From: a virus
Direction: 5' to 3' (one strand)
Virus record (IMG/VR): IMGVR_UViG_3300032326_000475
Location: 1 to 21,326 of that record
Length of the DNA: 21,326 bases
Shown: one piece after another, positions 5,515-21,326 of the stretch
Numbering within the stretch: position 1 is the stretch's first letter
How the letters are laid out: the number at the start of each line of letters is the position of its first letter
Notes under the pieces: model-generated
Told to the model about the DNA's origin: nothing
The model's input: the letters and a program-made list of their open reading frames with translations, nothing else
Databases searched by the model: none
Program-made: the position numbers and the translations under genes

Positions 5515-6474
5515 TTATTTCCCTTTTAGCTGCTGAACTTCTTTATTTAGTTCTTTGATTGCTTCGATTAGCAATGGTACTAATTTTTCATACTGAACTG
5601 TTTTATAGTTTTCACCAGAACGAGAAATTTCTGTATTTTCATCAATTCTAATTAAATCGAATGGGGCAGGCTTAACTGCTTCTGGAAGAACTTTCTGTAC
5701 ATCACCAGCAAGGACACCAACCTGTGTTTCTTTGTTCGTATAACCAAATGATTCTGCTATCTCATTAGAATTGTATGTTACACCACGTAGTGACATTACT
5801 TTATCTAGTGCGTTTGTAATAACTTGAATGTTTTCTTTTAGACGTTCATCTGAGTAGAAAGAAGTGATAGCGTTTGTTGCTCGAATTTCACCAGCAACCC
5901 CAGAAGGAGCAGTTCCTAATCCAAGAGAATTGGTTGCGTGTATAGATCCAGCAGTTCCAGATGCAGCAGTGCCGATACCCAAAGATCCAAACTGCACATT
6001 TGAAGAAGATGCTAAATCTTGTGGTCCAGATAAAGTAATACCACCAGAGGAATTAGTTACTGTGACTCTATTTGCAGTTCCAGTCAATGTGGCAGAAGAA
6101 TATCCTCCGCCAGAAGTTCCAATTAAAAGAGTACCACTAGACGGAGCAGTTGTGATTCCAGTGCCACCAGAAGCTACAGGTAATGTTCCAGTAGTAAGAG
6201 CAGAGGTGCTAGTCGCATAAACCGCACCACCAGAAGTAAAGGAAGTTAACCCAGTTCCACCATGAGTAGTAGCAATTGTAGTCGCATTCCAAGTTCCTGT
6301 TGTAACTGTTCCAAGAGTAACAAGATTAGAATTTCCTGTGTACGATGCTTCTAACTTATCAGTGTTTAGATTGATAAAATTAGTGTCAATCTCAGCATTC
6401 GTTAAAGGTAGGTTTTTTCTGGTTACACCACCTGTACCAGTAGTTCCCGTTTCTCTAGTTGTAATCGCAGCCAT
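5515..6474 (-). CDS. Tail fibre with C-terminal S74 intramolecular chaperone
   Basis: The 319-aa protein has three parts. The N-terminus carries LTNAEIDTNFINLNTDK (24-40), a common phage fibre anchor motif also recognisable in the 404-aa fibre at 14238. The middle (50-200) is a Gly/Thr-rich fibre with GGTG repeats. The C-terminus (about 206-319) is a peptidase S74 chaperone domain: SFYSDERLKENI (205-216), VGVLAGDVQKVLPEAV (252-267) and the helical tail VQYEKLVPLLIEAIKELN. In this family the domain guides trimerisation and then cuts itself off at the serine of SDxRLK, here Ser208. The ATG at 6474 follows an AGGAA SD. It directly follows the enzymatic island (47 nt), so it could be a client of those enzymes, but nothing in the sequence proves that. 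Confidence 0.9.
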   Translation of the reverse strand: MAAITTRETGTTGTGGVTRKNLPLTNAEIDTNFINLNTDKLEASYTGNSNLVTLGTVTTGTWNATTIATTHGGTGLTSFTSGGAVYATSTSALTTGTLPVASGGTGITTAPSSGTLLIGTSGGGYSSATLTGTANRVTVTNSSGGITLSGPQDLASSSNVQFGSLGIGTAASGTAGSIHATNSLGLGTAPSGVAGEIRATNAITSFYSDERLKENIQVITNALDKVMSLRGVTYNSNEIAESFGYTNKETQVGVLAGDVQKVLPEAVKPAPFDLIRIDENTEISRSGENYKTVQYEKLVPLLIEAIKELNKEVQQLKGK

Positions 6475-6521: not shown

Positions 6522-7217
6522 TCAACCTACGATTAGGTCTCCAGAATAACAATTTATTGCAGGTTCTATTAGGTTTAAATCATCTATATCCACAAAAAAC
6601 CTTATCATAAGGGCTGGAGTAGATCCATGATTAAACACATTGTGATAATGATATGAGTTAAAAATATAAGGAACACCTTCAATATATTTAGAGTCATATG
6701 AAACAATCGGTTTTATATTAAAGTCTGATCCTCTATACTGTCGATAATCCACCACCGAATGTTTAAATCCTTCTGGAATAGAAATAGGAAGCTGAACTAT
6801 CAATATGTTCTCTGGTTGATGAAACTCTAACACATGGCTATGCCAACCTATAATGGTGCTCGGCATAACTTCCTCAATTCTACATAAAGACTTCCCTGCA
6901 CCAAGAGCCTCTAAAACCTCATAGGTATAGGGTAAATATTCTGTCAATCCAGTCTTTTGAAATTTACCAAATCTTTCTAGTAAAGCATTACCACCATCGC
7001 CTTCATTCGTGTCACAAAACATACTTCCATCGTAGCTATACAAAGAAAGATTATTCCAACCATCTGGGTTATGATTATATCCTTTTTGTATATTTGCATT
7101 ATAACTCATTAGAGGAAATGGCATCGCCCTAATCTCATCCTCTATTCGTTTAGCATCAAATGAGAATAGTAGAGGAAGATGTGGTATAGTTTTAACCTTC
7201 TCTAATAACTCGTTCAT
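6522..7217 (-). CDS. Aspartyl/asparaginyl hydroxylase-like candidate Fe(II)/2OG oxygenase
   Basis: The 231-aa protein shows a cupin-like pattern in its second half: GWHSH (124-128), LIVQLPISIPEGF (139-151), then YIFNSYHYHNVFNHGSTP (184-201) and MIRFFVDID (204-212). This resembles the aspartyl beta-hydroxylase family, where a strand ending in ..LxIPxxG precedes a (F)(N/D)(D/N)SxxHxVxN motif and an RxxxxVD strand; His192 would be an iron ligand and Arg206 would bind 2-oxoglutarate. The usual first iron-ligand position appears to be Gln142, so one of His126 or His128 would have to replace it, or the protein is a non-catalytic cupin. It overlaps the B12-type radical SAM gene by 26 nt as the last gene of the island. 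Substrate unknown; hydroxylation of a virion protein is a guess. Confidence 0.6.
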   Translation of the reverse strand: MNELLEKVKTIPHLPLLFSFDAKRIEDEIRAMPFPLMSYNANIQKGYNHNPDGWNNLSLYSYDGSMFCDTNEGDGGNALLERFGKFQKTGLTEYLPYTYEVLEALGAGKSLCRIEEVMPSTIIGWHSHVLEFHQPENILIVQLPISIPEGFKHSVVDYRQYRGSDFNIKPIVSYDSKYIEGVPYIFNSYHYHNVFNHGSTPALMIRFFVDIDDLNLIEPAINCYSGDLIVG

Positions 7218-9069
7218 AGTATGTTCTTATCTGATAGAATTTATCATATTTTGGTGAAAAAGTATTCTTATAACTATTCAATTTTTCTTTAAACTGCTCC
7301 ACTATATTTTCTGGGATCTCAAGATTAAGTTCTTTACCAATACCTATTAAAAATTTAATATAATCCTCTTCAAACACTAAAACACATACTTTGTAAATGT
7401 AAGAGAAATCAACAGATACATCAGTAAACGGTAAATTAAATTGTTTATAATCTACGATCTCTTTCCTGTTACCCATCATTAAATCATACATCTGATTATT
7501 AAGATCTTGCATTGCCAATACATATTTATTTTTACTGGGAGAGGTAATACCTTCATAAATTTTCCTAAAAATTAAAGAAGGTTTTTCTAGCCTACCGATT
7601 GCAATATTGTGCTTAACTATCGTATCTGTAAAGTCAATCATGGAAACATTTTCAAGTATCCAATGATTCATAAAGAAAAACTCCGTAAAGTCTTTTCTTG
7701 TGTAACCATCTGCTTCGACCACAAACTCTACATCAGATAAAAATTTAGGATCAGATGATATATGGTAATCTTTAAAGATATTAATGTCATCGTAAGAATA
7801 ACTATTCATTTTAGATTTACCAATGCAAATCTTTTCAGTTTTAATATTAAACTTTTTAATATATTCAGGATCGTATGCAGGAGAGTCTGGTAGAAATAAC
7901 CAAAGGTATCGTTCCAACCCATAACCATACTCATACTGAATATCAACTTCGTCATAAAAGTCGTTTTGAGTATAACCTGGAAGACCCATCATAAATTCAA
8001 AGTCTGCTCGAATACCATATTCATCGAATAGATACTTGGCAAACTCAAAGTCTTTTTCACGAGGGATATCAGTTCGTTTAATGTTACGAAGAACCTCGTT
8101 GTTAAGAGTTTGTAAACTTAATTTATATCGTTCAACCACACCTGCTCTTGCCAGTGGTTCAATTGTTGCCCATCTTCGTTCTTGTTTAGACTTGGTCATA
8201 CCATAAATCTCTACATGAGTTGGAAGACCAGAAAACGATTTTATTTCTTCAATATATTTTGAGACATCTTCATCTTCTTTGTAAATACCATAGTTGGCAT
8301 CAAGAATTTGAATTTGATCAATACCAACCTGAGGTATCCAATCTAGATCTTCTTTAATAAAGTTCATAGATTTACGGATAACCTTACCACCAATTCCACC
8401 ACCCCATTCGCAGAACACACATTCGTAGGGACATCCACGAGTTAACTCAATGGGTAGAACTAATGGAACACCTCGCTCCAGTGCAATATTTTTACATTTA
8501 AATAAAATGTCTTCATTACCTGCAATTAAACTTCCAGGAAACTCAAAGTCAATTTTATTTGGGCTTTTACCACGACCAGTTTTATAGATTGAAAATGAAA
8601 CTTCTTTCCAGTTTATATCGCCTTCAACAAATTGATCAAGAATGTCATTAATAAACCATTCACCATAACTGGTGGGTTCACAAATAGCATCTATAAATTT
8701 ATTCTTAAAGAACCAATCAATTTTATTATGCGTAATATTAAGATGTGGACCACCAAGCACAATAATTCTTTTTGGGTTTCTTTCCTTTAGTTCCTTTGCC
8801 ACAGCCATAATAGCCATGTGACTCCAAAGATAACTAGAAAATGCATAAATGTCAGAATCTTGTTTATCGTAGTAGTCAACGATATCTTCAAATGACCAAT
8901 CTTCTAAATTTAGAATTGGTTCTTCCCATTTTACATGTGACGCATACTTACCATGTTTAATATAATAGTTCTTAAAGTTAAGCCAATTAATCGGCAACCT
9001 TACAATGGGAACTCTTAAATCAATATTAAGAAACGAGATTCTTATGGATTCTTTGAGTTGCTTCGACAT
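7192..9069 (-). CDS. B12-binding-type radical SAM protein (625 aa)
   Basis: The first 160 residues have the look of a cobalamin-binding Rossmann domain as found in class B radical SAM proteins: SDIYAFSSYLWSHMAIMAVA, then RIIVLGGPHLN and FIDAICEPTSYGEWFINDIL; like many such domains it lacks DxHxxG. The radical SAM core starts at LTRGCPYECVFCEWGGG, with the 4Fe-4S ligands Cys213, Cys217 and Cys220 (CxxxCxxC) and later motifs such as ILDANYGIY and FEFMMGLPGYTQND. Relatives methylate unactivated carbons or do other radical chemistry with methylcobalamin. I use ATG 9069; an in-frame GTG at 9081 would add four residues, and neither start has a good SD. It overlaps the upstream SPASM gene by 44 nt. 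The substrate cannot be told; cobalamin would have to come from the host cell. Confidence 0.88.
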   Translation of the reverse strand: MSKQLKESIRISFLNIDLRVPIVRLPINWLNFKNYYIKHGKYASHVKWEEPILNLEDWSFEDIVDYYDKQDSDIYAFSSYLWSHMAIMAVAKELKERNPKRIIVLGGPHLNITHNKIDWFFKNKFIDAICEPTSYGEWFINDILDQFVEGDINWKEVSFSIYKTGRGKSPNKIDFEFPGSLIAGNEDILFKCKNIALERGVPLVLPIELTRGCPYECVFCEWGGGIGGKVIRKSMNFIKEDLDWIPQVGIDQIQILDANYGIYKEDEDVSKYIEEIKSFSGLPTHVEIYGMTKSKQERRWATIEPLARAGVVERYKLSLQTLNNEVLRNIKRTDIPREKDFEFAKYLFDEYGIRADFEFMMGLPGYTQNDFYDEVDIQYEYGYGLERYLWLFLPDSPAYDPEYIKKFNIKTEKICIGKSKMNSYSYDDINIFKDYHISSDPKFLSDVEFVVEADGYTRKDFTEFFFMNHWILENVSMIDFTDTIVKHNIAIGRLEKPSLIFRKIYEGITSPSKNKYVLAMQDLNNQMYDLMMGNRKEIVDYKQFNLPFTDVSVDFSYIYKVCVLVFEEDYIKFLIGIGKELNLEIPENIVEQFKEKLNSYKNTFSPKYDKFYQIRTYYERVIREG

Positions 9070-10072
9070 AATCTGTTTCACTGTTAATTTGTATAATTCT
9101 TGGAGCCAACTGTTTCATATGAGAACAATGCTCTTCAACCATTCCATGCTGTTTCAAATCTTTAATCGTTTTCTTACATCCGTTGCAAATACTAAACATC
9201 GGACAAGTAACACACTCATCTTTCAATGAAAATAACTCTGGTGCGTTTTGCAATGGAGTTATAAAACCACCCTCTTTAACTTCCTTTACAAAGTTAATTG
9301 GATATTCTTTATCGTCGCCCATGGCTCCACAAGAGTAATAATCACCCTCTGGATTCATTGCTCTAATATGGTCATCACAATTTCTTGCCTGAGGACAAAC
9401 ATTGGCGATATTATTCAGACGAGTCATCATCTGTTTAGTATTAAACTCCCACGGATGAAGTCCTCGTTCGTAAACTTCAATATACATTTCGTATATTTTA
9501 CTTAGGCGATATGGTGATGATTGTTCTCCAGATGCCATCGCATAGTTTAACTTACATTGGACATCCATTTTCTTGGCTAACTCCACATGACGAATTGCAT
9601 GCTTCTCGTTTTCTTCAGAGATAACTGCAATAAATCCTGGACGATAACCAACTTCTTTTAGGAACAAATCGCTAACATTCCAAAAGTCTTTTTCAGTATA
9701 GACTCTGGTTCCTGATATTACACGACCAAATCCATATTGAAAACTAGTTGTAACTGCAACTCTTGGGTGTTTGAATAAAGGTGTCCACATCTCTGGTTTC
9801 TTATAGAATGCCCAGAGATTTGTGGTGAAACTTATGTTTGTTGGGAGATTGTGTTCTTCAATATAGTCAAGTATAGTGAAGTAGTATTCTGGTTTCATCA
9901 TTAGCGGATCTCCGCCATTGACAATAATACTATTTGTGTTTGGAAATCTTTTTAAAAAATCAAAAATGTGCTGATGATCAAGAGTGCTTGCTTTGTCTTC
10001 TACGAGTTTGGTTGATGAACAAAAGGTGCACTTAAAATTACATAACTCAGTTGGTTTGATTATAAGTTCCAT
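9026..10072 (-). CDS. Radical SAM/SPASM protein, second in the island (348 aa)
   Basis: The radical SAM cluster ligands are Cys11, Cys15 and Cys18 (LCNFKCTFCSS), followed by a GGDP motif (53-56) that contacts SAM. A complete SPASM domain is visible: Cys226/232, Cys248 (YYSCGAM), then Cys287-x2-Cys290-x5-Cys296-x2-Cys299 and Cys316, enough ligands for two auxiliary 4Fe-4S clusters. SPASM proteins of this type modify peptides or proteins, for example sulfatase maturases and sactipeptide or ranthipeptide synthases. There is no extended N-terminus with a RiPP recognition element, so a separate partner would have to bind the substrate. It overlaps the neighbouring genes by 26 and 44 nt. Class is certain; product is unknown. 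Confidence 0.93.
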   Translation of the reverse strand: MELIIKPTELCNFKCTFCSSTKLVEDKASTLDHQHIFDFLKRFPNTNSIIVNGGDPLMMKPEYYFTILDYIEEHNLPTNISFTTNLWAFYKKPEMWTPLFKHPRVAVTTSFQYGFGRVISGTRVYTEKDFWNVSDLFLKEVGYRPGFIAVISEENEKHAIRHVELAKKMDVQCKLNYAMASGEQSSPYRLSKIYEMYIEVYERGLHPWEFNTKQMMTRLNNIANVCPQARNCDDHIRAMNPEGDYYSCGAMGDDKEYPINFVKEVKEGGFITPLQNAPELFSLKDECVTCPMFSICNGCKKTIKDLKQHGMVEEHCSHMKQLAPRIIQINSETDYVEATQRIHKNLVS

Positions 10073-11018
10073 TTTTCACTTTATACTTGTCAAGCCATGC
10101 TGTATTTTTATGGAGAATGGTGTTCCAGAAAATTGGATTAATTGAATCAAAATTAGAATAGTTAGGAAATAATAATTGATTGCCAGACGCAAACTCTTTA
10201 TTTAAAAGGTAAGTCTCAACAAATTTTTGTTTAGAAATATTTGCATCTTGATCCCACATTGGTTTCCATTCTGTGGTATTATTCATTACAGTAAAGTAAT
10301 GTTCTAGATAATCAAAATCAAAATGTTCTTTAATTTTATCTACAATTTTATTTGGAAATACTTCATCGACCTCAAACTGTTCCACAAAAGAATCAATAAA
10401 CTCATTATTAGTTAAATTTGCAATTGTAAATTCTTCATCTGAAAGTAATGCTGGTAAATTTTGTTCAGCATCTTTAGACCAAAATCCAGGAGATCCATCA
10501 TACATTTCAGTGGCACGATCTACGCAGAATTGTAAGGCATCTTCATTACCTCTCATAGCGTTTGCAAATGCAATTTCTATTCTTGTTGTAGTCAATAAAG
10601 AAGAAAAGATAGATGCAGTATCTGTTCCCTTTAAAGTCTTTGGTAGATCTACAAACTCTACATCTCTAGTTGCGAATACACCAATTCTATAATTTTCTTT
10701 AAGTCTATCGAATGAGTATAATTCTTTAACAGCAGATTCTTCTAATACACCATTAAAGAAGTATGAGTATACATACATAAAGTTTTCAACATCACAATAA
10801 ATTACAGTTTTAATATTCGAATAATCTTCATGAATTTCATTAAATAATTCTTCTAACTCATCATCGTTGATCTCTTTATATGAATGTAAAATATCATATG
10901 TAAGATTGAGCATTGGATCTCGATCTAATTTTGCATGAGACCCTATCCAAATCTGTTTAGATTTTTCAACAATACTATTTGTAGTTGATAGATAACAATT
11001 ATCGAAAAGATATATCAT
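10047..11018 (-). CDS. Unknown protein, paralogue B of the island (323 aa)
   Basis: I place the start at ATG 11018 (MIYLFDNCYL), which overlaps the upstream stop codon in an ATGA junction; the open frame runs 17 codons further into the upstream gene but without support. I do not recognise the family. Residues 1-80 align with the next gene upstream (M-I-Y-L-F-D-N-C-Y against M-L-H-L-Y-N-S-C-Y; KQIWIGSHAKL against DYIVVGDKHAIL; TVIYCDVEN against FIIYCDNET), so the two are probably diverged paralogues. The rest is acidic and helical (NDDELEELFNEIHEDY), with no transmembrane segment or metal motif. Position between the SPASM enzymes suggests a substrate-binding or scaffold partner. That is inference from context only. 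Confidence 0.75.
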   Translation of the reverse strand: MIYLFDNCYLSTTNSIVEKSKQIWIGSHAKLDRDPMLNLTYDILHSYKEINDDELEELFNEIHEDYSNIKTVIYCDVENFMYVYSYFFNGVLEESAVKELYSFDRLKENYRIGVFATRDVEFVDLPKTLKGTDTASIFSSLLTTTRIEIAFANAMRGNEDALQFCVDRATEMYDGSPGFWSKDAEQNLPALLSDEEFTIANLTNNEFIDSFVEQFEVDEVFPNKIVDKIKEHFDFDYLEHYFTVMNNTTEWKPMWDQDANISKQKFVETYLLNKEFASGNQLLFPNYSNFDSINPIFWNTILHKNTAWLDKYKVKNGTYNQTN

Positions 11019-11899
11019 GCTATTAAACCTAACTGTGTGATTTTTGATTGTGGTAATCTCATTAACCATCTAATCAACCAAGTATCTACTTTATCATTGG
11101 ATACCAGTAATAAAAATTTTGGATCATTTAACAATTCTTCGGTGACCCCAGTTTCAAAAAATTGTAAAATTAATGGATCTGTAAACAACGCTATTTCTTT
11201 TCGCATTTCCATGTATAATTCTTTCATGGAAGCTACTGTACTAAATCGCTGATTATTTACATCTACTGCCCAGCCACCAGTTTTTCTTGAAAGATAACTT
11301 TCTTGTGCTTCATCAAAAAACGAATAAACATAACGATTCACAAGATCGTTTAATATGTTAATGTGACTGTTTGGAACACCACAATTCCTATTTGCAACTT
11401 TCCATTCAATTCCAGCATTCTCCCAAACCCAATAAGGATCTATCGGAAATTTACTAACATTTGGTATTGAATTTAGTTCTATAAAAGTATCACCAAGATC
11501 GTTAATGATTTCTTTATTGGAAGAATCAATTAGTTTTGATTTAATTTTTAAACGAACACCAAATAGTTTAGCAAGATCAAAATACAAACTATTATCAAAA
11601 AACTGAATATGTGATTTAAGTTTAGCAGTAAATAATTTTATTAGAGTTTCGTTGTCACAATAGATGATAAATTTTTGTTTGTTGCTAAATGCAGGTAATA
11701 GTAGATTACTATTAATAAAATCTTCGTATGTTTTAAAACGAGCATAACACTGATGTATGAACACATTATTATAATAAAAACTATTCTCAACTCCCGCACC
11801 TAAAATTGCGTGTTTGTCGCCAACTACAATATAATCTGCAGAAGATGGATCGAACATTGCATATGGATATGCATAACAAGAATTATAGAGATGTAACAT
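11015..11899 (-). CDS. Unknown protein, paralogue A of the island (294 aa)
   Basis: The start is ATG 11899 with AAGAGA upstream, and it overlaps the preceding gene by 17 nt. The family is not recognised. Shared features with the following gene are an N-terminal MLHLYNSCYA, an IVVGDKHAIL strand at about 24-33 and FIIYCDNETLIKLF at about 77-90. The pattern of short beta strands followed by helices suggests an alpha/beta N-terminal domain, and the C-terminal part (LLNDPKFLLLVSNDKVDTWL, WLMRLPQSK) looks helical. Cysteines at 8, 51, 81 and 173 do not form an obvious cluster-binding set. The gene is rich in A+T (Asn, Lys, Ile and Phe codons), like its two neighbours. An accessory role to the radical SAM enzymes is suggested only by the overlapping arrangement. 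Confidence 0.75.
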   Translation of the reverse strand: MLHLYNSCYAYPYAMFDPSSADYIVVGDKHAILGAGVENSFYYNNVFIHQCYARFKTYEDFINSNLLLPAFSNKQKFIIYCDNETLIKLFTAKLKSHIQFFDNSLYFDLAKLFGVRLKIKSKLIDSSNKEIINDLGDTFIELNSIPNVSKFPIDPYWVWENAGIEWKVANRNCGVPNSHINILNDLVNRYVYSFFDEAQESYLSRKTGGWAVDVNNQRFSTVASMKELYMEMRKEIALFTDPLILQFFETGVTEELLNDPKFLLLVSNDKVDTWLIRWLMRLPQSKITQLGLIA

Positions 11900-12641
11900 T
11901 TGTCTCTTCGTAAATATTTTGTAATTGTTGTGGAGTAAATGAATTATCTAATATCATCTTTAACAGAGGGAAAATAATACAACCACCTGTTATATAAGTC
12001 ATAAGTGTCTTACCTGAATAGATTGGTCTATCAAAGTAAAAATCAAAATATTTAATTTTATCAAATTTTGGAATTGATGCATAATAGTGAGAATTAAAAG
12101 TTTCGTTTTGAAATAGATTAACAAATGTTTTTCCTATTTCTTGTTTTTCTTCTACTATGTTATTTGTTATAAAATCTCCAAGTTCTTCTTTATAAGCATT
12201 TAAATTTTTAATTGCATATAGTAAAGTTCCATCTAAGATGTCACAAAGTGCTTTAATCAATTCTTCGTTTTCTTTAACAAAGTGCTCTATCTCAGAATTG
12301 GTTAAAATACTTTTTTGTAAAAATTCAATATCTAATTTCGAATTATCAACTAAAGATAAATTATATCCTTTTTGATAGAATAGACTTTTAATAACACTGG
12401 CCAATAATTGCTCAATATTTGCAGTGGAATTGTGTTTAATATATTCGAGTAATAGAGTTTCCTTCTCGTCAATAGAAACATCTGTGAAATCAATATCAAC
12501 TGTTCTATATTTTAAATTGCTAAAATAGGTAATAAAATTTTTACCTTTAATAGTTGAATTTGCATAATCAATTTTAGGAGAATCTAATTCTCCTGTGATA
12601 ATACTTTTTAAGGTAACAGAATCAAATGGAACACTATACAT
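11883..12641 (-). CDS. Unknown island protein following the Cys-tail gene (252 aa)
   Basis: The start is ATG 12641 (MYSVPFDSVTLKSIITGELD). Its first base is shared with the TAA of the Cys-tail gene (TAATG), and a GGAAG SD sits six bases upstream inside that gene's last codons. The open frame continues ten codons further up, but that would overlap the sequence of the Cys-rich tail. I do not recognise the family. The protein is soluble and rich in Lys, Asn, Ile and Leu; it is mostly helical by eye (NIEQLLASVIKSLFYQKGYN, EIEHFVKENEELIKALCDIL) with an aromatic strand KIKYFDFYFDRPIY near residue 205. Because its translation depends on reading to the end of the Cys-tail gene, a dedicated partner of that protein is plausible. 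Confidence 0.75.
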   Translation of the reverse strand: MYSVPFDSVTLKSIITGELDSPKIDYANSTIKGKNFITYFSNLKYRTVDIDFTDVSIDEKETLLLEYIKHNSTANIEQLLASVIKSLFYQKGYNLSLVDNSKLDIEFLQKSILTNSEIEHFVKENEELIKALCDILDGTLLYAIKNLNAYKEELGDFITNNIVEEKQEIGKTFVNLFQNETFNSHYYASIPKFDKIKYFDFYFDRPIYSGKTLMTYITGGCIIFPLLKMILDNSFTPQQLQNIYEETNVTSL

Positions 12642-13171
12642 TATAAACTTCCGTGACAAGATCCATGGCAATTGCTATGGCAGTAAAATTCTTCAATAAG
12701 AACAGTATTTGTTCTATGATTATTAATAGCTGTAGATAAAGAATTTACAAAATCATCTAAATCAGAAGCATCTACATTAGTTTCAGAAGAGGGAACACTT
12801 GATCCAGTTGTGCTCATATCAGCAGCATAATCAGCTTTTAAATTAGTTATGTTAGTTTGATCACTGTTTAACTGTGCTCTAACATCACCTTGTATCTGAT
12901 ACCATTTCTTTAATTGAACACTTCTAATTCTGGATAGTAAATTAGCATATCCTCTGAAGTTAGCCACTATTGTAGAAGCAGTAACATTAGCGTCAGAAAT
13001 ATCAGAACTAAAAGAACCTGTTGCATAGCCACTATCATTACCACCAGTAATATCTGTTTGAAATGGTTGGTTGCCACTGTGCCACACAATACCTGCATTA
13101 TAGGTATTTCTAATAGATTCCATTGAAGCAACAATATTTGCTTTTGTTATATTATCGCCAGCTGTTGTCAT
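12641..13171 (-). CDS. 176-aa protein with C-terminal CXXX-repeat tail; candidate radical SAM substrate
   Basis: The ATG at 13171 follows an AAAGG SD at seven bases. The protein ends EEFYCHSNCHGSCHGSL: three C-x-x-x units with Cys164, Cys168 and Cys172, each followed by His. These are the only cysteines in the protein. CXXX-repeat peptides are known partners of radical SAM/SPASM maturases, and such an enzyme is encoded immediately upstream with a 20-nt overlap. The first 160 residues (TAGDNITKANIVASMESIRN, GYATGSFSSDISDANVTAS, then two helical stretches around 75-150) look more like a small virion protein than a short RiPP leader. So it may be a structural protein carrying a modifiable tip, a precursor with a long leader, or an unmodified protein binding metal through the Cys/His pairs. 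The ending is read directly from the DNA; function is inferred. Confidence 0.8.
   Translation of the reverse strand: MTTAGDNITKANIVASMESIRNTYNAGIVWHSGNQPFQTDITGGNDSGYATGSFSSDISDANVTASTIVANFRGYANLLSRIRSVQLKKWYQIQGDVRAQLNSDQTNITNLKADYAADMSTTGSSVPSSETNVDASDLDDFVNSLSTAINNHRTNTVLIEEFYCHSNCHGSCHGSL
12644..12682 (-). other. Coding segment for the CHSNCHGSCHGSL tail
   Basis: Thirteen codons directly before the stop encode three CXXX units plus a final Leu. The units use different codons (TGC CAT, TGC CAT, TGT CAC), so this is not a fresh DNA slippage product; the protein repeat seems to be maintained. The last codons also hold the GGAAG SD of the next gene. Confidence 0.9.
12648..12652 (-). promoter_or_regulatory. 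Ribosome binding site GGAAG that fixes the 12641 start
   Basis: GGAAG lies six bases before the ATG at 12641, within the Gly-Ser codons of the upstream gene. Together with the TAATG junction it supports termination-reinitiation and the shorter start of the 252-aa protein. Confidence 0.7.
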
Positions 13172-14231
13172 TCTTTAACCTTTGCATTAGTGTTTTCGGT
13201 GCTGCACAGACATCTTCCTGCCACTTCAATTGGTGACAGTCGCTATTACAGATATCAAATACATCACAGGTATAGCAACGAGGATCTCTTTCTATCTCGC
13301 ATGTAATGTTATTTATTCTTCCTCTGGCAGAGAGTAGACTTCTAATGGGTTGAAATATATCTCCAAAACCATTACCCACTGCAGCATTTGGACATCCTGC
13401 CACAGTTCCATCGGCATTAATTGTGAAGATTTTCTGTTCACAATCTCTACAACGAACTCCACCATGTATTCCTTTAGTTATAGAGGAATAGACACCTTCC
13501 AGTAGGACATCTTTATATTTAGGTTTTATTGTCTGATAGGTTTCATGCATTCTAACAAACCAGTCGTCTTGATCTTTATTTGCAGGAAATATATGAGTGT
13601 TTACCAAAGCCGAACCATCGTGAGTTAATCGTTCAAACTGCACCCAATTAACACCTAGAGTATTGAGCCATAGAACTAACTCAGTAGTATCCATCTCCAT
13701 TAGTTGTTTATTAAGACTAATATTAAGAGTGATATTATGCCCAGCATCTACCACAGTTTGCAGATTCTTTCGCCAGAGGTTTTCTTGTTTATCATTTTCA
13801 AATCGAATACCTTTATCCCATGAAGTGCAGAATCCATTCTTTAGAACAGTTTTGAAAAACTTCATGTGGTCTTCAGTTAGATTAAAACAGAGATTAGTAG
13901 AACAAGACCAGTTAAGATTAGGAAATAATTTTGATACCTTATCCCATACATAGTACATGTCATCTAGCGGAGCAAGGAATGGTTCTCCTCCATGGAATGT
14001 AATATTCCCACCATTAAAAGATGGGCATTCCTCGTAGAGTCGTTCAAACCACTCTACTGTATTCTGGGGATTAAAATATATCTTTTTACCGTTGACACCA
14101 TTTGTAAAACAGTGTTGGCAATTAAGTTGACAAGTTTCGGTGGTCTTAAGATAGACCACCAAATCTTTTGGGATTAATATATCTGAAAGAGATACATCTG
14201 TCTTATGAAAGACAATTGGTTGAGTTATCAT
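13152..14231 (-). CDS. Radical SAM/SPASM protein, first in the island (359 aa)
   Basis: The catalytic cluster ligands are Cys34, Cys38 and Cys41 (TCQLNCQHC), preceded by a strand VVYLKTTE and followed by the SAM-binding HGGEPF (80-85). The SPASM domain is complete: Cys261-x2-Cys264, Cys280 (TVAGCPN), Cys319-x2-Cys322-x5-Cys328-x3-Cys332 and Cys342. This is the layout of anaerobic sulfatase maturases and peptide-modifying SPASM enzymes with two auxiliary clusters. The start at 14231 lies six bases after the stop of the 404-aa fibre and has no clear SD, so it probably depends on coupling. The downstream gene, with the CXXX tail, overlaps its end by 20 nt; enzyme followed by substrate is the natural reading. 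The specific reaction (thioether, C-C link or oxidation) cannot be told from sequence. Confidence 0.93.
   Translation of the reverse strand: MITQPIVFHKTDVSLSDILIPKDLVVYLKTTETCQLNCQHCFTNGVNGKKIYFNPQNTVEWFERLYEECPSFNGGNITFHGGEPFLAPLDDMYYVWDKVSKLFPNLNWSCSTNLCFNLTEDHMKFFKTVLKNGFCTSWDKGIRFENDKQENLWRKNLQTVVDAGHNITLNISLNKQLMEMDTTELVLWLNTLGVNWVQFERLTHDGSALVNTHIFPANKDQDDWFVRMHETYQTIKPKYKDVLLEGVYSSITKGIHGGVRCRDCEQKIFTINADGTVAGCPNAAVGNGFGDIFQPIRSLLSARGRINNITCEIERDPRCYTCDVFDICNSDCHQLKWQEDVCAAPKTLMQRLKNDNSWR
14139..14160 (-). other. Perfect inverted repeat inside the radical SAM coding region
   Basis: GGTGGTCT and AGACCACC form an 8-bp stem with a six-base loop, about 70 nt into the gene that starts at 14231. 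There is no T run, so it is not a terminator. It might slow translation or mark an RNA processing site, or be chance. Confidence 0.5.
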
Positions 14232-14237
14232 GAAGCA

Positions 14238-15452
14238 TTATAAAATTACACATTCAACAAGTTTAACATTAACATCTTCATTTGTTTCTAATGCTATTGC
14301 AAATGAATTGCTAGTATCACCATACATACCCTTACCATCTTGATTACAGATTAGTGGTTGTCCTTTGCGAATTGGACCAACTACTTTAACTGGAACACGA
14401 CCACGAAGTGCAATGGCTTGACCATCTGCTTCATCATTCATTAAAAATGCTGGATTAGTAGAAATAACACCAAGAACTCTTTGTCCAGACTGCCATGTTT
14501 GAGTTGCCTCTGCATCACCATTAAGTGCAACTGCTAATACAGTTCCTGCTTCATACTCTACATCAGTTGTATATTTTTCTGCCAAGTCAGCATATTGAGC
14601 AGTAGTTGCAGTTCCAAAAATAGTGCCGAAACGATTGCCAGTTTGACCGATATTACCAGAGCCATTAGTTCCTGTTTTAATAAGTGCAGAAACTTCAGGT
14701 GTGCTTGATAATGCAATAGTAGGATTACCAGAAACTGCATCACCATTAGTTACTGTTATAGAAGTGCTACCTGCAATACTTCTTGTTATTGCTGTACCTG
14801 CAGTATTTTTAACAAACAGACCATGAGTTGTTATAGCAGCAAGTGCTGTTAAGTTATTGGAAAATGGTTGAACATCTGAACCAAGAACCAATCCAAGATT
14901 TGTTCTTGCTTGAGCAGCAGTGCTCGCACCAGTGCCACCATCTGCAATCGCTAAGTCTGTAATTCCAGCAATAGAACCACCAGTGATTGATACGCTATTA
15001 GACGCTTGAGTTGCCATAGTGCCCAAACCTAGATTTGTTCTAGCGTTTGCTGCAGTAGTAGCACCTGTGCCACCATTGTTTATTGCTACAGTACCATCCA
15101 CATTAGTTGCATTACCTGTAACAGTTCCAGTTACATTACCTGTGAGGTTTCCTGTGACATTTCCAACCAGAGTTGCAGTAATAGTTCCAGCAGAAAAGTT
15201 ACCACTACTTCGTGTAACTACAGTATTACCTGATGTATCAGAACTGCTGGTATTTAAACCATCTAATAAATCTGCATCTAAACCAGAACTAGCACCATCA
15301 ACAGTTTTAATTTTTGTTAAAACATCTGCTGCAGTATAAGTTGCAGTATCTAGTTTAGTTCCAACCTCAGTGTTTAGATTGGTAAAATTAGCGTCTGCCT
15401 CTGCAATCGTAAGCGGACTGCCTTTAACTGATCGTAATACGATTACTGCCAT
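14238..15452 (-). CDS. Tail-fibre protein with tandem GGTG modules (404 aa)
   Basis: The N-terminus SVKGSPLTIAEADANFTNLN (8-27) is the fibre anchor motif also present in the S74 fibre of this window. Residues 96-118 hold tandem four-residue units (GNVTGNLTGNVTGTVTGN), and two copies of GGTGxxTAAxARTNLGL (127-143 and 172-188) follow, a hallmark of long phage fibres. The C-terminal 120 residues (from ADLAEKYTTDVEYEAGTV, through RVLGVISTNPAFLMND and ALRGRVPVKVVG) form a domain common at the ends of cyanophage fibres; it recalls G2-type intramolecular chaperones, but I cannot see a cleavage site. The ATG at 15452 overlaps the stop of the preceding gene (TAATG) and has an AAGGAA SD. The enzymatic island begins six bases after it. 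Confidence 0.87.
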   Translation of the reverse strand: MAVIVLRSVKGSPLTIAEADANFTNLNTEVGTKLDTATYTAADVLTKIKTVDGASSGLDADLLDGLNTSSSDTSGNTVVTRSSGNFSAGTITATLVGNVTGNLTGNVTGTVTGNATNVDGTVAINNGGTGATTAANARTNLGLGTMATQASNSVSITGGSIAGITDLAIADGGTGASTAAQARTNLGLVLGSDVQPFSNNLTALAAITTHGLFVKNTAGTAITRSIAGSTSITVTNGDAVSGNPTIALSSTPEVSALIKTGTNGSGNIGQTGNRFGTIFGTATTAQYADLAEKYTTDVEYEAGTVLAVALNGDAEATQTWQSGQRVLGVISTNPAFLMNDEADGQAIALRGRVPVKVVGPIRKGQPLICNQDGKGMYGDTSNSFAIALETNEDVNVKLVECVIL

Positions 15453-15679
15453 TATCGTTCCTTATTAATAAGAGTAATAAGCAATTGCTTAATCTCTGAC
15501 ATATCTGATTCAATCTGTTTGATCTTATCAGCATTTTGTTTAATTTCTTCTTTTATCTGTTTATTAGCATTACGCTTTATCAGATAATTTTGATAGTCTG
15601 TTGTACTAGTATTTATTACAGCACCGCTAGTTAAATCTCTAACTAGACTATCACTATCTTGTATTTTAACAAATTCCAT
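15452..15679 (-). CDS. Small coiled-coil protein between virion genes (75 aa)
   Basis: The start is ATG 15679 (MEFVKIQDSDSLVRDLTSGA), which shares its A with the TAA of the DUF4815-like gene (TAATG); an in-frame upstream ATG would add three residues inside that gene. The N-terminal half (KIQDSDSLVRDLTSGAVINT, then DYQNYLIKRN) is a motif common in small proteins of T4-like marine phages. The C-terminal half has a heptad pattern (IKEEIKQNADKIKQIESDM, then IKQLLITLI) predicting a coiled coil. A small structural or assembly protein is likely, but its precise role is unknown. Confidence 0.82.
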   Translation of the reverse strand: MEFVKIQDSDSLVRDLTSGAVINTSTTDYQNYLIKRNANKQIKEEIKQNADKIKQIESDMSEIKQLLITLINKER

Positions 15680-18600
15680 TATGCACACGCTATTACACGA
15701 AGGTCTTTAATTCTTGGCACTTCAGAAGAGTTAATTGACTTCATAACAATTTTTAATTGAACTGCATCAAAAGAATCAAGATTATTAGCAGAGTAACTTA
15801 CATCATAAAATTGTTGACTTCCATTACTTGCGCTAACAATTGTTTCATCTGCAGTCATTAATGTATAATTAACATCTTCAAAGGAAGAAGTAGAACCAAC
15901 AACTGCAGTTTTGTAGTAAACTTCAATAGTAGCATCAGATGGTTTATTTGCAGCAAAACGAACTCTTAAGAAGTTAGATGGATTTGCTAAAGTAACTTTT
16001 TTCGTTACATACTTACTGTATGTAGATGACTCTAATGGGGCTATTTCATCAACAAATCGTTCACGCTGAGTTAAGGTAGCATTACCAGTAATTGCATCAG
16101 GTGCTGTAGAGAAAGTGATAGAACTACCGTCTGAAGCTACAGCAGTAATCAAACGAGTGCTTGATCCAGAAGATGCACCAGCAATTGTTAAATATTTACC
16201 AACAGTTGCTGTTTTAAATTGAGCATTTCTAGTAGAAGTAGTAATTTGATTTCCTGAAACAGTAACACCAGAAAGAGCACTTAAAATAATATTATTATCA
16301 AGTCCTGCTACATTCATATTAGTTTCAGATGGACTATTTACTTTATTACTAAACACAATAGCACTAGTTCTATGAGTATCAATAATTGGAGATAGAGCAT
16401 TGTTTGTAGTGCTCATAGTAACATTTAATGTTAATGATTTATTTCCACTTAACGAATTAGTTTCATTAATTTCAGAAGCAACCATTCTTGGTGATGTAAA
16501 GAAATTATTTTCATTGGCCAAAATGCCACTAAATGATGCATCTTGAACATATGCAGTTTGTGTAGTTGAATCTACAGACTTACCTGTAGTTGTTTTAATC
16601 CCAAAGTCTAGTGGAGTTTCGGAGAATCGTTGAACTTGAATCTGTGGTTGAATACCATCATACTGTAGATTTCGTGTAGCCTGTACAGAAGAACCACCAG
16701 CATATCCAGAAGCAGTTGCAGCAGTGGTAGCTACAGTAACAACATAAGAGTCTAAATCTACATCACTAATAACATGTGTTGTATTTAATTCTGCAGCTGG
16801 AATACCATTTACTGCTGCAGCTACACCACTTATAGTTACACGAGTACCAGATGGAACACCATGATCTTTGTGCCAGACACGAACTTTAGTTTGTCCAGCT
16901 CTAGTTTCAAAAGGATTTGAGTCTAGTGTTTGTTTAGGAATCACATCATTAACAAACTCTACATTGGCAATAACTGAAGTATCAAATTTTGCACGATATA
17001 AAACAAATTTTAAATCTTGCGTTTGATCAGCTGTCCAAGTAGATGCGTTTTGTGATTTAAATAATGATCCAAGATATGGTTGTTCTGAAATTGTGCGAGC
17101 AGTTCCTGGCATTGTATCGCCGATCTGAGAAATCCACACTTTATAGTTATTTGAATCAGATGCTAGTACAATCGCATACTCTGTATTCTCTTGAACATAT
17201 ACAGGAGATGGGAAAACAAAAGATGTGGCAGTATCATATTTTGCTACAGAAACACCATCAAGTGTAACTGTATTGGCAGAAATATTAACTTGCTCTGGAT
17301 TTAATTTAATACGAGAAAATGGCAATACTCGTTTTCCAGGATATCCATTCACGACCTCACGAATTTCTAATGTTACTGGAACATTAGCATCTTTAGTCGC
17401 AAAGAAAATATCTACCTTAGATAAGAAACATCCACCTTTTTGTTCAATTAAGAATGTTTGAGCAAGTGGATCCCACCATCCAGTATCACCAGCAACACGA
17501 TCTGCAGTTTGTGTAATAACACGATTTTCTACTAATCGTTCTTCAACTAACTCAGCATTACGAACAGCATGAACAGTTTGTTGACGAGTTTCAAGCACAC
17601 CCTCTGCACGATAATTCGCACGACCACGAGATGTAAAATCTCCAGTGGCAGTTGAAACATCAAGAAGTTTTAATTCACGAACACCAGTGCGGAATCTTAA
17701 TGCATTTGTGTTTGGAATATTAAACAATAATTGTAAATTACCGTTAAAGTTTGATGTTAATGTTCCACCAAGAGATCCTGCTGTCACACTTCCGAATGTG
17801 CCTGTCTGAGATGAAATAGAACCAGTCAATGTTTCACCAGAAGTAAATGTTCCTTGAATATTATGAACATATAATGCATATGCTACAGTGTCTGGATTAT
17901 ATTCTTTTCCAACAACTACAGCAGTAGCACCAGAACTAGATCCAGTAATTATGTCACCACGATTTAAACAGACTTGTGAATCTCCATTTATACGACGAGC
18001 GGTTGCAGCTGCTAAACCACCAACATTGGTAATATCATCAAACGCTTGATGAGTAGCTAATCTTGCTGCAGCAGTTGCTCCTGATGGAGTATAAACAATT
18101 TTTGCAGCAGGGGTGCAGTAATCACCAACAGAAATCTCATCAAAGTATGGATAAAAGCGAGTATTTGGTTTTAAACCTTTAACTTGTATTAATATATTTC
18201 GTGAACGAATATATGGTAGAGCAGCAGTAGATAAAACACGATCTGCAACTACTTGTCTATCAATTTTAGTAACTAGATTAGTTTTAACACCAGTTCTAGA
18301 TTGCCCCAATTCACGAGCAACTTGTGTAACTGTAATCTGACGAGCATTGGTATGAGCACCCTCATTTGCAGCAGCACCAAAACGACGATTAAATTCTTCA
18401 ACACTTAGTCGAACATCCCCTTGACCAGATGCCCAATTAGTTCCAGTTGTGAATCTTACATTTCCTGTATTTCTTGGTGCACCAGTCCAATTGGTTTGCC
18501 ATGCATTCCAAACTGTACCCAAAACACCAGCTTTTTCAGCGATGTCTTTAATTGTGCTATAGTTACCCTCAACATCAAGAACTAAATCTGGACGACGATC

Positions 18601-21326
18601 TATTTCAAACCAGTCGTCTGAAGATGGGTTAATTTTAACATCACCCAAGAAAGTAAATACTGCAAATGGGTTAATGTTTTCTAATCTTGATGCATATGGT
18701 TGTGTGATAATTGCCAAATTTTCTAACACTGGCATGGTAATAACATCACCATATAATTTGTAATTTGCAGATGCTCTAGAACCGCTACTAGAATTTTTCT
18801 CTAATAGATTTATATTATTCATTGAGAAGAATGGACGAAGTTCTCCCCTTTCCATGTCAATAGAACATACATAATCTGGAGAAACAGTATTACCAGTATT
18901 ATGACCAGTAAATCCATCTACTATAAATCCATTTTTAAATCTACTATCACCATTAGAGTCAATAACATCTAAAGACTCAGTCTGTTGTTCTAATAAAGAT
19001 AATGATGTATAGTATTCTAAATTATCAATTCGTTTTTCAAGTTTACCGATATCACGCATTGTGTATCGTTTGTTGTCAATTCTATTAATTTGAACATTAT
19101 TACTTAATGTCCCAAAAGTATATGGTTCTAATGTTAGATTATAAAGCACAAGCCCTAATGCTGGATCCAATGGATCTCCTGGGTTAAGTGATGATACTCC
19201 ATCAATCGCAAAGAAATTTCCACCAAAGTCTATTGCAATTTTAGCCTTTCTTGCTAAGTGATAAGTGAAGTCTGTTGTTACATCGATACCACGCTTAGGC
19301 ACTAATGATACAGAAGATCCAGTTCCAGAAAAACTAGTACCAGCATCATCAATTCTTGGACGGAAATCAATAACATCTCTTAATGCCTGCCCTTCAAAAT
19401 ATGGAATTGCTTTGTAATCTACATTGGCTGGATAAGAATTTACAGTAAAATAATCACCAGTTGAATGTGTAAAGTAATCATATGTTACTTCAATTGGTGC
19501 TTCTGGTGGAGCATAAGAATTCTTTAAGATAAGTCTTGCTTGATCGTAATGAGTATTTCGTTGTCCGTCATCCCATTCGTAACGATCTGAAATATCAATA
19601 GAATATGTTGCTCCTGGAGAAGCAAATGTTCCAGATTTCATTTTAACAGAAATTAAACGATATCCATCTGCTTTACCTAATAACAGTGTAGAATTTTGTG
19701 CAGCTGCTTGAGTAGTAAATGTTGCTGTGGCTGCAGCAACTAATGTTTTAGATTTTTCTGTTAGAGTAGAACCACTCTTATTAACAGCTGCAATAACTAA
19801 CATTGATCTACCAGAATATGTAGAACCAAGATCAAATGTCACACTAGATCCTGATGGTGTAATTCCAGTAGGTAGCACAATAGCACCGCCAGCACCAGAA
19901 TCATTATCAACAACAATATAATTATCTGTTTCAGCTGCAGAAGCCATGTCACCAGATGCTGTTGATACTGTTAATTGAGGTGAACCTGATACTGTTGCAG
20001 TGCCAGAAAACTTTTCATACACAGTGTAAACTGTATCGTTAGCAAGTAGTGCTGAACGAACATCTTTAATTGCATAATAAGGTAATGGGAAAATTAAAGA
20101 TGTATGCTCTGGTTCTTTAATAGTAGTTGTAACTCTATCAAGAGTAGAACCAGTAATAGTAATTGATGAGTCAACAGTCATTGAAACTTGAGATGCAATC
20201 GCTGTAATACGACGCTTAGTTCCACCAAATGATACTACATCTCCAACAATAAAATCAGTTTGGAAAGAAGTACCAGTACCAGTGATTGTAGTAGAGGAAG
20301 AAGCTGTAGCTGATCCAACTAAACGAGTTAAAACTGGTTGAATATCAGCAGAGAAAGATAAATTTGCATCACTTGACACATTAAAGAAAAATGACTTAAC
20401 TTTACGAGCAAAGTCAAAAGTGCCATTCATTTTAATATCAAATAAACTTAATTTGTAAATAGCAGTCTGTGTACCAATTGTTCCACCAGAACCATCAGGT
20501 GCACCAAATTCTAGTAAACGGACACGGGCAGTACCAACTGCTGTGGCACTCGCAGGAGCAGTACCAACAGAAGATGTTAATCTATCATACAGTGTAACTT
20601 CACCAAAAGTATCTACTGGTGGTAAACTATTAACATTAGTAACAAGCACATAGTTACCAACTGTGGCTGGAATAATAGCGTTTTCTACTTGAACATATTC
20701 ACGAGATTTTGCAAGAGGAATATATTCAGTAGAAACTTTTTCAATTTCATATCCTTGAACATACGCTTTTCCTGGCTCTAAACCAATGGCAAGTTTTGCT
20801 TCGTTTGCTTGATTTGTACCAAGAGTATCTGCATTTCCTGGAGAATAAATTCCACGATTGTAGTAAGGATTTGTATTATATTCCCATTGAACACCAGTAT
20901 TACCTGGACCATCATAAACTAAACCAACAGTATGAGTTGGTGGAACACTTGATGATGATGTAGCACTATTTCTAGCCACATATGTATTACCACCATTTGT
21001 TATAACATCGCCTATTAGATAAACACGACTAGATGTCCATGCACCACGATTATTATTACGATATTCACGAACATCAATTTCAAAATTCTTAGTAGTATAA
21101 TCGCCAGACTCGTCATATGTACGACGAGCAAAAGTTTCTTCTAATACTGAATATTCTGTACGACGAGTTTCTTTTTTAATCTGCCCATCACCAGTACGAA
21201 CCAACTCAATAAAATCTGTATCTTCAGTACTACCTTCAGTTAGTTTAGTTAATGTTGCAGTTATGCTGTAACGATGAGCACCTGGAGCAGCATAGTTAAA
21301 TGAATTTTGAGCATTATCATATAATG
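15679..21326 (-). CDS. DUF4815-like giant virion protein, 5' end outside window
   Basis: The frame is open from the stop at 15679 to the window edge: at least 1,881 residues, with the start missing. The first visible residues (YDNAQNSFNYAAPGAHRYSI, TKLTEG, DTDFIELVRTGDGQIKKET, LEETFARRTYDESGDY) match the opening of DUF4815 proteins, large structural proteins of T4-like cyanophages, so little of the N-terminus is probably lost. Later landmarks are VDYKAIPYFEGQALRDVIDF (about residue 630), LKPNTRFYPYFDEISVGDY (about 1070), GWWDPLAQTFLIEQKGGC (about 1300) and a mixed-beta C-terminus ending RIKDLRVIACA. No catalytic motif was seen. A baseplate or tail-fibre component is likely from family and position, beside fibre genes and overlapping the 75-aa gene by one base. 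Confidence 0.87.
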   Translation of the reverse strand, partial: LYDNAQNSFNYAAPGAHRYSITATLTKLTEGSTEDTDFIELVRTGDGQIKKETRRTEYSVLEETFARRTYDESGDYTTKNFEIDVREYRNNNRGAWTSSRVYLIGDVITNGGNTYVARNSATSSSSVPPTHTVGLVYDGPGNTGVQWEYNTNPYYNRGIYSPGNADTLGTNQANEAKLAIGLEPGKAYVQGYEIEKVSTEYIPLAKSREYVQVENAIIPATVGNYVLVTNVNSLPPVDTFGEVTLYDRLTSSVGTAPASATAVGTARVRLLEFGAPDGSGGTIGTQTAIYKLSLFDIKMNGTFDFARKVKSFFFNVSSDANLSFSADIQPVLTRLVGSATASSSTTITGTGTSFQTDFIVGDVVSFGGTKRRITAIASQVSMTVDSSITITGSTLDRVTTTIKEPEHTSLIFPLPYYAIKDVRSALLANDTVYTVYEKFSGTATVSGSPQLTVSTASGDMASAAETDNYIVVDNDSGAGGAIVLPTGITPSGSSVTFDLGSTYSGRSMLVIAAVNKSGSTLTEKSKTLVAAATATFTTQAAAQNSTLLLGKADGYRLISVKMKSGTFASPGATYSIDISDRYEWDDGQRNTHYDQARLILKNSYAPPEAPIEVTYDYFTHSTGDYFTVNSYPANVDYKAIPYFEGQALRDVIDFRPRIDDAGTSFSGTGSSVSLVPKRGIDVTTDFTYHLARKAKIAIDFGGNFFAIDGVSSLNPGDPLDPALGLVLYNLTLEPYTFGTLSNNVQINRIDNKRYTMRDIGKLEKRIDNLEYYTSLSLLEQQTESLDVIDSNGDSRFKNGFIVDGFTGHNTGNTVSPDYVCSIDMERGELRPFFSMNNINLLEKNSSSGSRASANYKLYGDVITMPVLENLAIITQPYASRLENINPFAVFTFLGDVKINPSSDDWFEIDRRPDLVLDVEGNYSTIKDIAEKAGVLGTVWNAWQTNWTGAPRNTGNVRFTTGTNWASGQGDVRLSVEEFNRRFGAAANEGAHTNARQITVTQVARELGQSRTGVKTNLVTKIDRQVVADRVLSTAALPYIRSRNILIQVKGLKPNTRFYPYFDEISVGDYCTPAAKIVYTPSGATAAARLATHQAFDDITNVGGLAAATARRINGDSQVCLNRGDIITGSSSGATAVVVGKEYNPDTVAYALYVHNIQGTFTSGETLTGSISSQTGTFGSVTAGSLGGTLTSNFNGNLQLLFNIPNTNALRFRTGVRELKLLDVSTATGDFTSRGRANYRAEGVLETRQQTVHAVRNAELVEERLVENRVITQTADRVAGDTGWWDPLAQTFLIEQKGGCFLSKVDIFFATKDANVPVTLEIREVVNGYPGKRVLPFSRIKLNPEQVNISANTVTLDGVSVAKYDTATSFVFPSPVYVQENTEYAIVLASDSNNYKVWISQIGDTMPGTARTISEQPYLGSLFKSQNASTWTADQTQDLKFVLYRAKFDTSVIANVEFVNDVIPKQTLDSNPFETRAGQTKVRVWHKDHGVPSGTRVTISGVAAAVNGIPAAELNTTHVISDVDLDSYVVTVATTAATASGYAGGSSVQATRNLQYDGIQPQIQVQRFSETPLDFGIKTTTGKSVDSTTQTAYVQDASFSGILANENNFFTSPRMVASEINETNSLSGNKSLTLNVTMSTTNNALSPIIDTHRTSAIVFSNKVNSPSETNMNVAGLDNNIILSALSGVTVSGNQITTSTRNAQFKTATVGKYLTIAGASSGSSTRLITAVASDGSSITFSTAPDAITGNATLTQRERFVDEIAPLESSTYSKYVTKKVTLANPSNFLRVRFAANKPSDATIEVYYKTAVVGSTSSFEDVNYTLMTADETIVSASNGSQQFYDVSYSANNLDSFDAVQLKIVMKSINSSEVPRIKDLRVIACA

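Follow-up and report, generated by a model that had tools for sequence, protein, structure and literature searches.

The closest described systems in design to the locus analysed here are the His-Xaa-Ser systems (HxsA/HxsA2, HxsB, HxsC; Haft and Basu, as cited by PMC9062424). In these, as here, a protein with an N-terminal region and C-terminal repeats (His-x-Ser) is encoded beside radical SAM enzymes, whereas the phage locus has a CHxx repeat, a usual RGRR end, extra enzymes and a location among fibre genes. CXXX-repeat, ranthipeptide and SCIFF-type RiPPs share with it a Cys at every fourth residue and a SPASM maturase. They differ in that an invariant His follows each Cys here and the tail is carried on a folded protein. 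The darobactin and dynobactin maturases DarE and DynA (NF038005 and NF041298) are the top NCBIfam matches of two enzymes of the locus, termed rSAM-A and rSAM-B, with scores that miss the cut-offs (33.5 of 650 and 52.3 of 450 bits); the substrate motif of DarE/DynA is unlike the phage tail.

Two other systems resemble the locus in setting. Radical SAM cassettes are a variable element of the host-recognition cluster in pelagimyophage genomes (PMC7029224, excerpted sections), and we liken this variable genome region to the present one by description; those sections name no substrate or pathway for the cassettes. In predatory bacteria, S74-type chaperone fibres recognize prey, and the mosaic adhesive trimer (MAT) fibres of Bdellovibrio, which are of this type, serve in prey recognition and entry (PMC10769870, excerpted sections). 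The cassette described below lies near an S74 fibre in Bacteriovoracaceae, but those fibres start with a prepilin-like segment, and radical SAM modification is undescribed in the excerpted MAT work.

The window, meaning the whole stretch of DNA analysed, is a 21,326-bp virus record in which a cassette spanning about 6522 to 14231 sits between fibre genes. On the minus strand, the transcription order is DUF4815 protein, small ORF, tail-fibre-like protein, rSAM-A, T, P, q1, q2 and rSAM-B, followed by a B12-binding radical SAM enzyme, an Asp/Asn-hydroxylase-like protein and an S74 fibre protein:

15679-21204, minus strand: large structural protein (DUF4815), upstream; PF16075, E 3.7e-29; similar genes in 49 loci
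15452-15688, minus strand: small ORF between the DUF4815 protein and the tail-fibre-like gene
14238-15452, minus strand: tail-fibre-like protein, cassette flank; PHROG tail fibre matches and a weak Peptidase_G2 match below cut-off
13152-14231, minus strand: rSAM-A, radical SAM/SPASM enzyme of 359 aa, phrog_1802; CxxxCxxC and complete SPASM
12641-13171, minus strand: T, 176-aa tailed protein, putative modification substrate, phrog_35144 relative; folded body, disordered end
12644-12682, minus strand: C-terminal tail of T, CHSNCHGSCHGSL, 13 codons, putative core region; Cys/His (nearly) invariant across families, under strong purifying selection
11883-12641, minus strand: P, conserved partner, phrog_20767; in 86 of 114 loci
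11015-11899, minus strand: q1, first of two probable paralogues (Q family), without library match
10047-11069, minus strand: q2, probable paralogue of q1, start probably internal (MIYLFDNCYL), without library match
9026-10072, minus strand: rSAM-B, second radical SAM/SPASM enzyme, cassette core; weak HxsC match, 31.7 bits
7192-9081, minus strand: B12-binding radical SAM enzyme (KedN5-like C-methyltransferase relative), accessory; NF033712, 126 bits, cut-off 700
6522-7217, minus strand: Asp/Asn beta-hydroxylase-like protein (PF05118), accessory; 22.6 bits, equal to the gathering score of 22.6
5515-6474, minus strand: fibre protein with S74 intramolecular chaperone, cassette flank; PF13884, E 2.6e-16

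On sequence evidence, we consider it probable that the virus carries here a RiPP-like cassette for maturation, of the His-Xaa-Ser type, of the C-terminal tail of T, a fibre-associated virion protein. A preliminary description of the DNA had drawn attention to an enzyme and a Cys-tailed protein in a RiPP-like layout among fibre and structural genes, a pair held to be undescribed in phages and proposed to work through modification of the tail by the phage while it infects. Reading of the ORFs bears out that T has Cys residues only at 164, 168 and 172, ends as stated in CHSNCHGSCHGSL and shares 20 nt (13152-13171) with the gene of a radical SAM enzyme whose SPASM domain is complete. The gene content agrees with the proposed setting, and no paper on the pair emerged from a literature search that covered phage RiPPs and the association of radical SAM genes with tail fibres. 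The two genes are present as described but form only part of the cassette, and the enzyme, although core, shares that rank with P and with at least one further SPASM protein, rSAM-B.

Several features make rSAM-A a candidate peptide or protein maturase. Its CxxxCxxC motif comprises C34, C38 and C41, and its SPASM pattern runs G275-x4-C280, C319-x2-C322-x5-C328-x3-C332 and C342, with C261 and C264 in addition; none of these motif cysteines varies among six distant sequences that were aligned. The curated SPASM model TIGR04085 scores it at 23.4 bits, narrowly below the cut-off of 27. Weak similarity was found to DarE, to anSME and to 5wgg, the SCIFF maturase CteB. The sequences closest to A and B are peptide- or protein-modifying SPASM enzymes, and the conserved protein encoded next to rSAM-A, T, is its candidate substrate.

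T itself is modelled with confidence (AF2 pLDDT 83, pTM 0.77) as a folded body whose last six residues, 171-176, are predicted to be disordered. In BFVD the fold has matches among phage proteins, one of them the homologue from Agrobacterium phage Atu_ph07, but PDB and Foldseek searches with profiles or models matched it to no solved fold. The P model is also confident (pLDDT 88, pTM 0.86); the likely ATG start of P overlaps the T stop (TAATG), and the same kinds of search returned no solved fold for P and no usable match for Q. Two tailed proteins stand in tandem in L086, L102, L108, L124, L142, L164 and other loci, and one class of these proteins, about 130 aa long, is encoded several kb from its rSAM-A.

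Conservation of the tail was assessed in 55 aligned T homologues gathered by similarity to rSAM-A or T. Sequences found by a DNA pattern for the tail were excluded from this alignment (A6) as conservation evidence, because the pattern itself demands the Cys/His residues and RxRR. The only invariant columns are C164, H165, C168, H169 and H173, while the sixth tail Cys/His, C172, is kept at 90% or more; mean column identity is 24%. From this alignment we conclude that the conservation of the tail is not due to chance. Identity of the T body to that of the window ranges from 20 to 93%. Within the window clade, pairwise comparisons to the window, which are not independent of one another, counted 65 synonymous against 13 non-synonymous differences over the 13 tail codons, and 472 against 751 over the body. 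By this measure the body is far less constrained than the tail.

The commonest tail is CHxSCHxSCHxSRGRR. The CXXX repeat of the preliminary description holds in its Cys at every fourth residue, but the conserved unit is CHx[S/N], usually with an RGRR end. Repeat number and make-up vary, as they do in repeat-type RiPP cores: L050-L052 lack the third Cys and L059 has extra repeats.

A relative of rSAM-A is encoded in 361 viral stretches of IMG/VR, the best 80 of which were examined. The rSAM-A search also recovered relatives in Sinorhizobium phage Phosso, Agrobacterium phage Atu_ph07 and Burkholderia phages FLC6, FLC8 and SURPRISE13; in Phosso, Atu_ph07, FLC6 and SURPRISE13 the gene adjoins one for a protein ending CHxSCHxSCHxSR(G/S)RR. 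A Pseudomonas jumbo phage protein 28% identical to T ends in CHTSCHTSCHSARGRR and is encoded directly 3′ of a radical SAM gene. The comparison covered 153 distinct rSAM-A sequences. In 132 of them 1 kb or more of DNA follows the gene, and a tailed ORF occurs in the same stretch in 121 of these; T and rSAM-A usually overlap or abut. Eight of the remaining 11 (L255-L259, L261-L263) have a tail elsewhere in the same contig, contigs included for the tail they contain, to give 129 of 132. The tail was absent from the compared stretch in three loci (L105, L111 and L117), so that homologues keeping the enzyme without the Cys tail, proposed beforehand as the outcome that would count against the pairing, are rare.

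The reverse comparison gave a similar picture. Among 38 whole tail-bearing contigs, chosen for having no full rSAM-A near the tail, 32 contain an rSAM-A match; the remaining six are only fragments, 5.6-38.7 kb long. A tblastn search of named phages with a 36-aa consensus tail returned no match, probably through the low-complexity filter, and DNA patterns and rSAM-A profiles were used for this reason. The tail DNA pattern occurs in at least 120 stretches in viral contigs. Of 241 genomes from the Bacteriovorax phylum, 5 contain it and none contains a reversed control pattern. As judged from these matches, the cassette occurs in hundreds of phage contigs and in some predatory bacteria.

Neighbour clustering of 114 loci plus the window defined the composition of the cassette. 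Locus counts were 112 for A, 86 for P, 83 for T, 78 for B, 73 for a cupin, 61 each for C and D, 47 for Q-like proteins, 44 for a 140-aa protein and 33 for the B12-radical SAM enzyme, with two 2OG-oxygenase-type clusters in 45 and 33. The usual gene order is cupin-A-T-P-Q-C-(accessories)-B-D-140 aa. Common to cassettes at a minimum are T, A, P and B; rSAM-C, rSAM-D, the cupin and 2OG oxygenases usually accompany A, B and P. Of 46 complete cassettes, 39 have a tail with an RxRR end; 38 of these encode rSAM-C, 34 encode D and 32 encode the cupin. The seven without RxRR, which constitute the window clade, have none of the three and carry the B12 radical SAM enzyme and the Asp/Asn-hydroxylase-like protein instead. 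The 140-aa protein is jointly absent from this clade.

Since the set without RxRR is a single clade, the correlation of RxRR with rSAM-C serves only as a lead. It may be that the CHxx repeat is the site of action of A and B, and that C and D depend on the RxRR end or act near it. With no RxRR end on its tail, and neither C, D nor the cupin in its cassette, the window may make a simpler product. Two further observations concern the FLC6 cassette (L031). Its rSAM-D, gp81 (21111-22052), has prokaryotic viperin as best NCBIfam match (43.4 bits, cut-off 180) and is possibly kin to nucleotide-modifying rather than peptide-modifying enzymes, and two dihydrofolate reductase genes lie side by side at 18310-19523.

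The resemblance to His-Xaa-Ser systems is seen in an epsilonproteobacterial MAG contig (L114), which encodes rSAM-A, P, B, C and a T-type protein ending in CHSSHSSHSSHSSRGRR. This tail protein matches HxsA2 (E 6.4e-5, 23.9 bits against a cut-off of 48), and a bacterial protein that does pass the HxsA2 cut-off has the ending HSSHASHASHASHASHASSRY and is encoded next to a radical SAM-like gene. The best NCBIfam match of rSAM-C is HxsB (24.8 bits, cut-off 370), and the cut-off for the HxsC match of rSAM-B is 267.9. A search of curated families gave no HxsA/HxsA2 match for the T of the window. T proteins weakly match the Cxxx-repeat target TIGR04117 and FibroRumin TIGR04135; none of the 55 passes the TIGR04117 cut-off, one reaching E 0.049. 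Because the phage proteins tested fall below the Hxs, CXXX-repeat and darobactin cut-offs, we describe the locus as Hxs- or RiPP-like in its presumed working and do not file it as a member of these families. No RiPP recognition element, protease or transporter was recognized, proteases and exporters having been sought among the recurrent neighbours scanned.

A place for T in the virion is indicated by Atu_ph07, whose T homologue is gp170. ESI-MS/MS defined three main clusters of virion proteins in this phage, one of them CDS 170-215, of which gp170 is the first gene (PMC6102473). When protein accessions are counted onward from gp170, the annotated major capsid protein, 45 genes on, is gp215, in agreement with the numbering of that paper. 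Since gp170 sits at the edge of the cluster, it was probably itself detected in virions, as read from the cluster boundary. We infer that T is a virion protein in the phage of the window as well.

In Bacteriovoracaceae-type bins, the cassette lies near S74 proteins on chromosomal-looking contigs. Several of these S74 proteins have prepilin-like N termini, and they are possibly a pilin-anchored fibre of predatory bacteria. Such proteins, which begin like a prepilin and carry the S74 chaperone at their C terminus, were seen near the cassette in MAGs of the Bacteriovoracaceae/Halobacteriovoraceae type (L099, L100, L104, L107, L110, L112, L115 and L118). Seven Bacteriovoracaceae-type genomes tested hold only 2-13 S74 domains each. 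A terminase profile, which may miss some terminases, found none over the cut-off in the genomes with these cassettes. A prophage origin of the cassettes was considered and set aside, as this result and neighbouring genes for acyl-CoA dehydrogenase, ribosomal protein S20 and pyruvate kinase point to the chromosome. Variant tails YCHGNFPPPCHGSRGRR and ICHSNCYTPPPKSRSRR, in which a proline stretch replaces part of the repeat, occur in Bdellovibrionota-type MAGs (L104, L107, L110, L118 and L097).

For the phage of the window, we infer that the tail is modified, together with the following chemistry and role. T would be a folded protein with its flexible C-terminal CHxx repeat as substrate, on whose Cys/His residues the SPASM enzymes A and B would install radical-type modifications, P acting as a likely adaptor or chaperone. 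The most plausible modifications are Cys thioether links or Cys-His/His cross-links, and the product could be a rigid, protease-resistant or metal-binding tip. Further marks would be added by rSAM-C, rSAM-D, the cupin and 2OG oxygenases in most phages, and in the window clade by the B12 methyltransferase-like enzyme and the Asp/Asn hydroxylase-like protein. T would be built into or beside a host-recognition fibre, and from that position the modified tail would act at the interface between phage and cell.

Three other readings have to be weighed against this one. The tail might be the unmodified metal or Fe-S tip of a virion protein (holding Zn, Fe or similar), with the enzymes acting on another target or merely assisting metal loading. 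CHxxCHxxCH is a plausible ligand set in which both His and Cys are invariant, but this reading, which we consider unlikely, leaves unexplained why several SPASM enzymes accompany the tail in nearly every contig and why Cys is lost in the CHSSCHSSHSS and CHSSHSSHSSHSS variants. Tail loss from the body is the essence of another proposal, in which a RiPP toxin or signal is released from T as its precursor, the body serving as a long leader and the cut tail being secreted against host or competitors. The precursor-like layout and the tandem tailed genes in L086, L102, L108 and L164 would fit. That the body keeps a folded domain common to distant phage proteins, that no protease or exporter is found among the recurrent neighbours scanned and that gp170 marks a virion cluster (PMC6102473) make it quite improbable.

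It could also be that the tail or its RxRR end is a mere docking tag for enzymes, which would place their marks on neighbouring fibre proteins brought together with T. Fibre genes do lie alongside, and RxRR tracks rSAM-C (38 of 39 against 0 of 7 cassettes) and D (34 of 39 against none). This correlation hangs on one clade, however, which keeps A and B without RxRR, and the invariant residues include reactive Cys and His and not just Arg, so that we give docking the same low standing as release. On the basis of sequence, the cassette suggests chemical remodelling of the tip of a protein used against bacteria.

If this is true, viruses finish a virion part by some of the most demanding peptide chemistry known. 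They would do so both in phages known from environmental contigs, which number in the hundreds, and in cultured jumbo phages that infect Pseudomonas, Burkholderia, Agrobacterium and Sinorhizobium. The T tail would then be the probable substrate for otherwise unexplained phage radical SAM genes, and phages would be connected with predatory bacteria. More tentatively, and with more doubt than conviction, we propose that a Cys-His cap built by radical SAM enzymes on a cell-attack fibre protein is common to tailed phages and predatory Bacteriovoracaceae, delivered in virions as a RiPP-like tip, as a common chemistry for attaching to or breaching cells.

Beyond the cassette, the window encodes on the minus strand three tandem similar proteins of 290-292 aa (2790-3668, 3678-4550 and 4560-5432). 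These resemble fibrinogen-related domains (GLYWFKNSNG...CDVPGGGWVLV), which is odd for a phage fibre locus.
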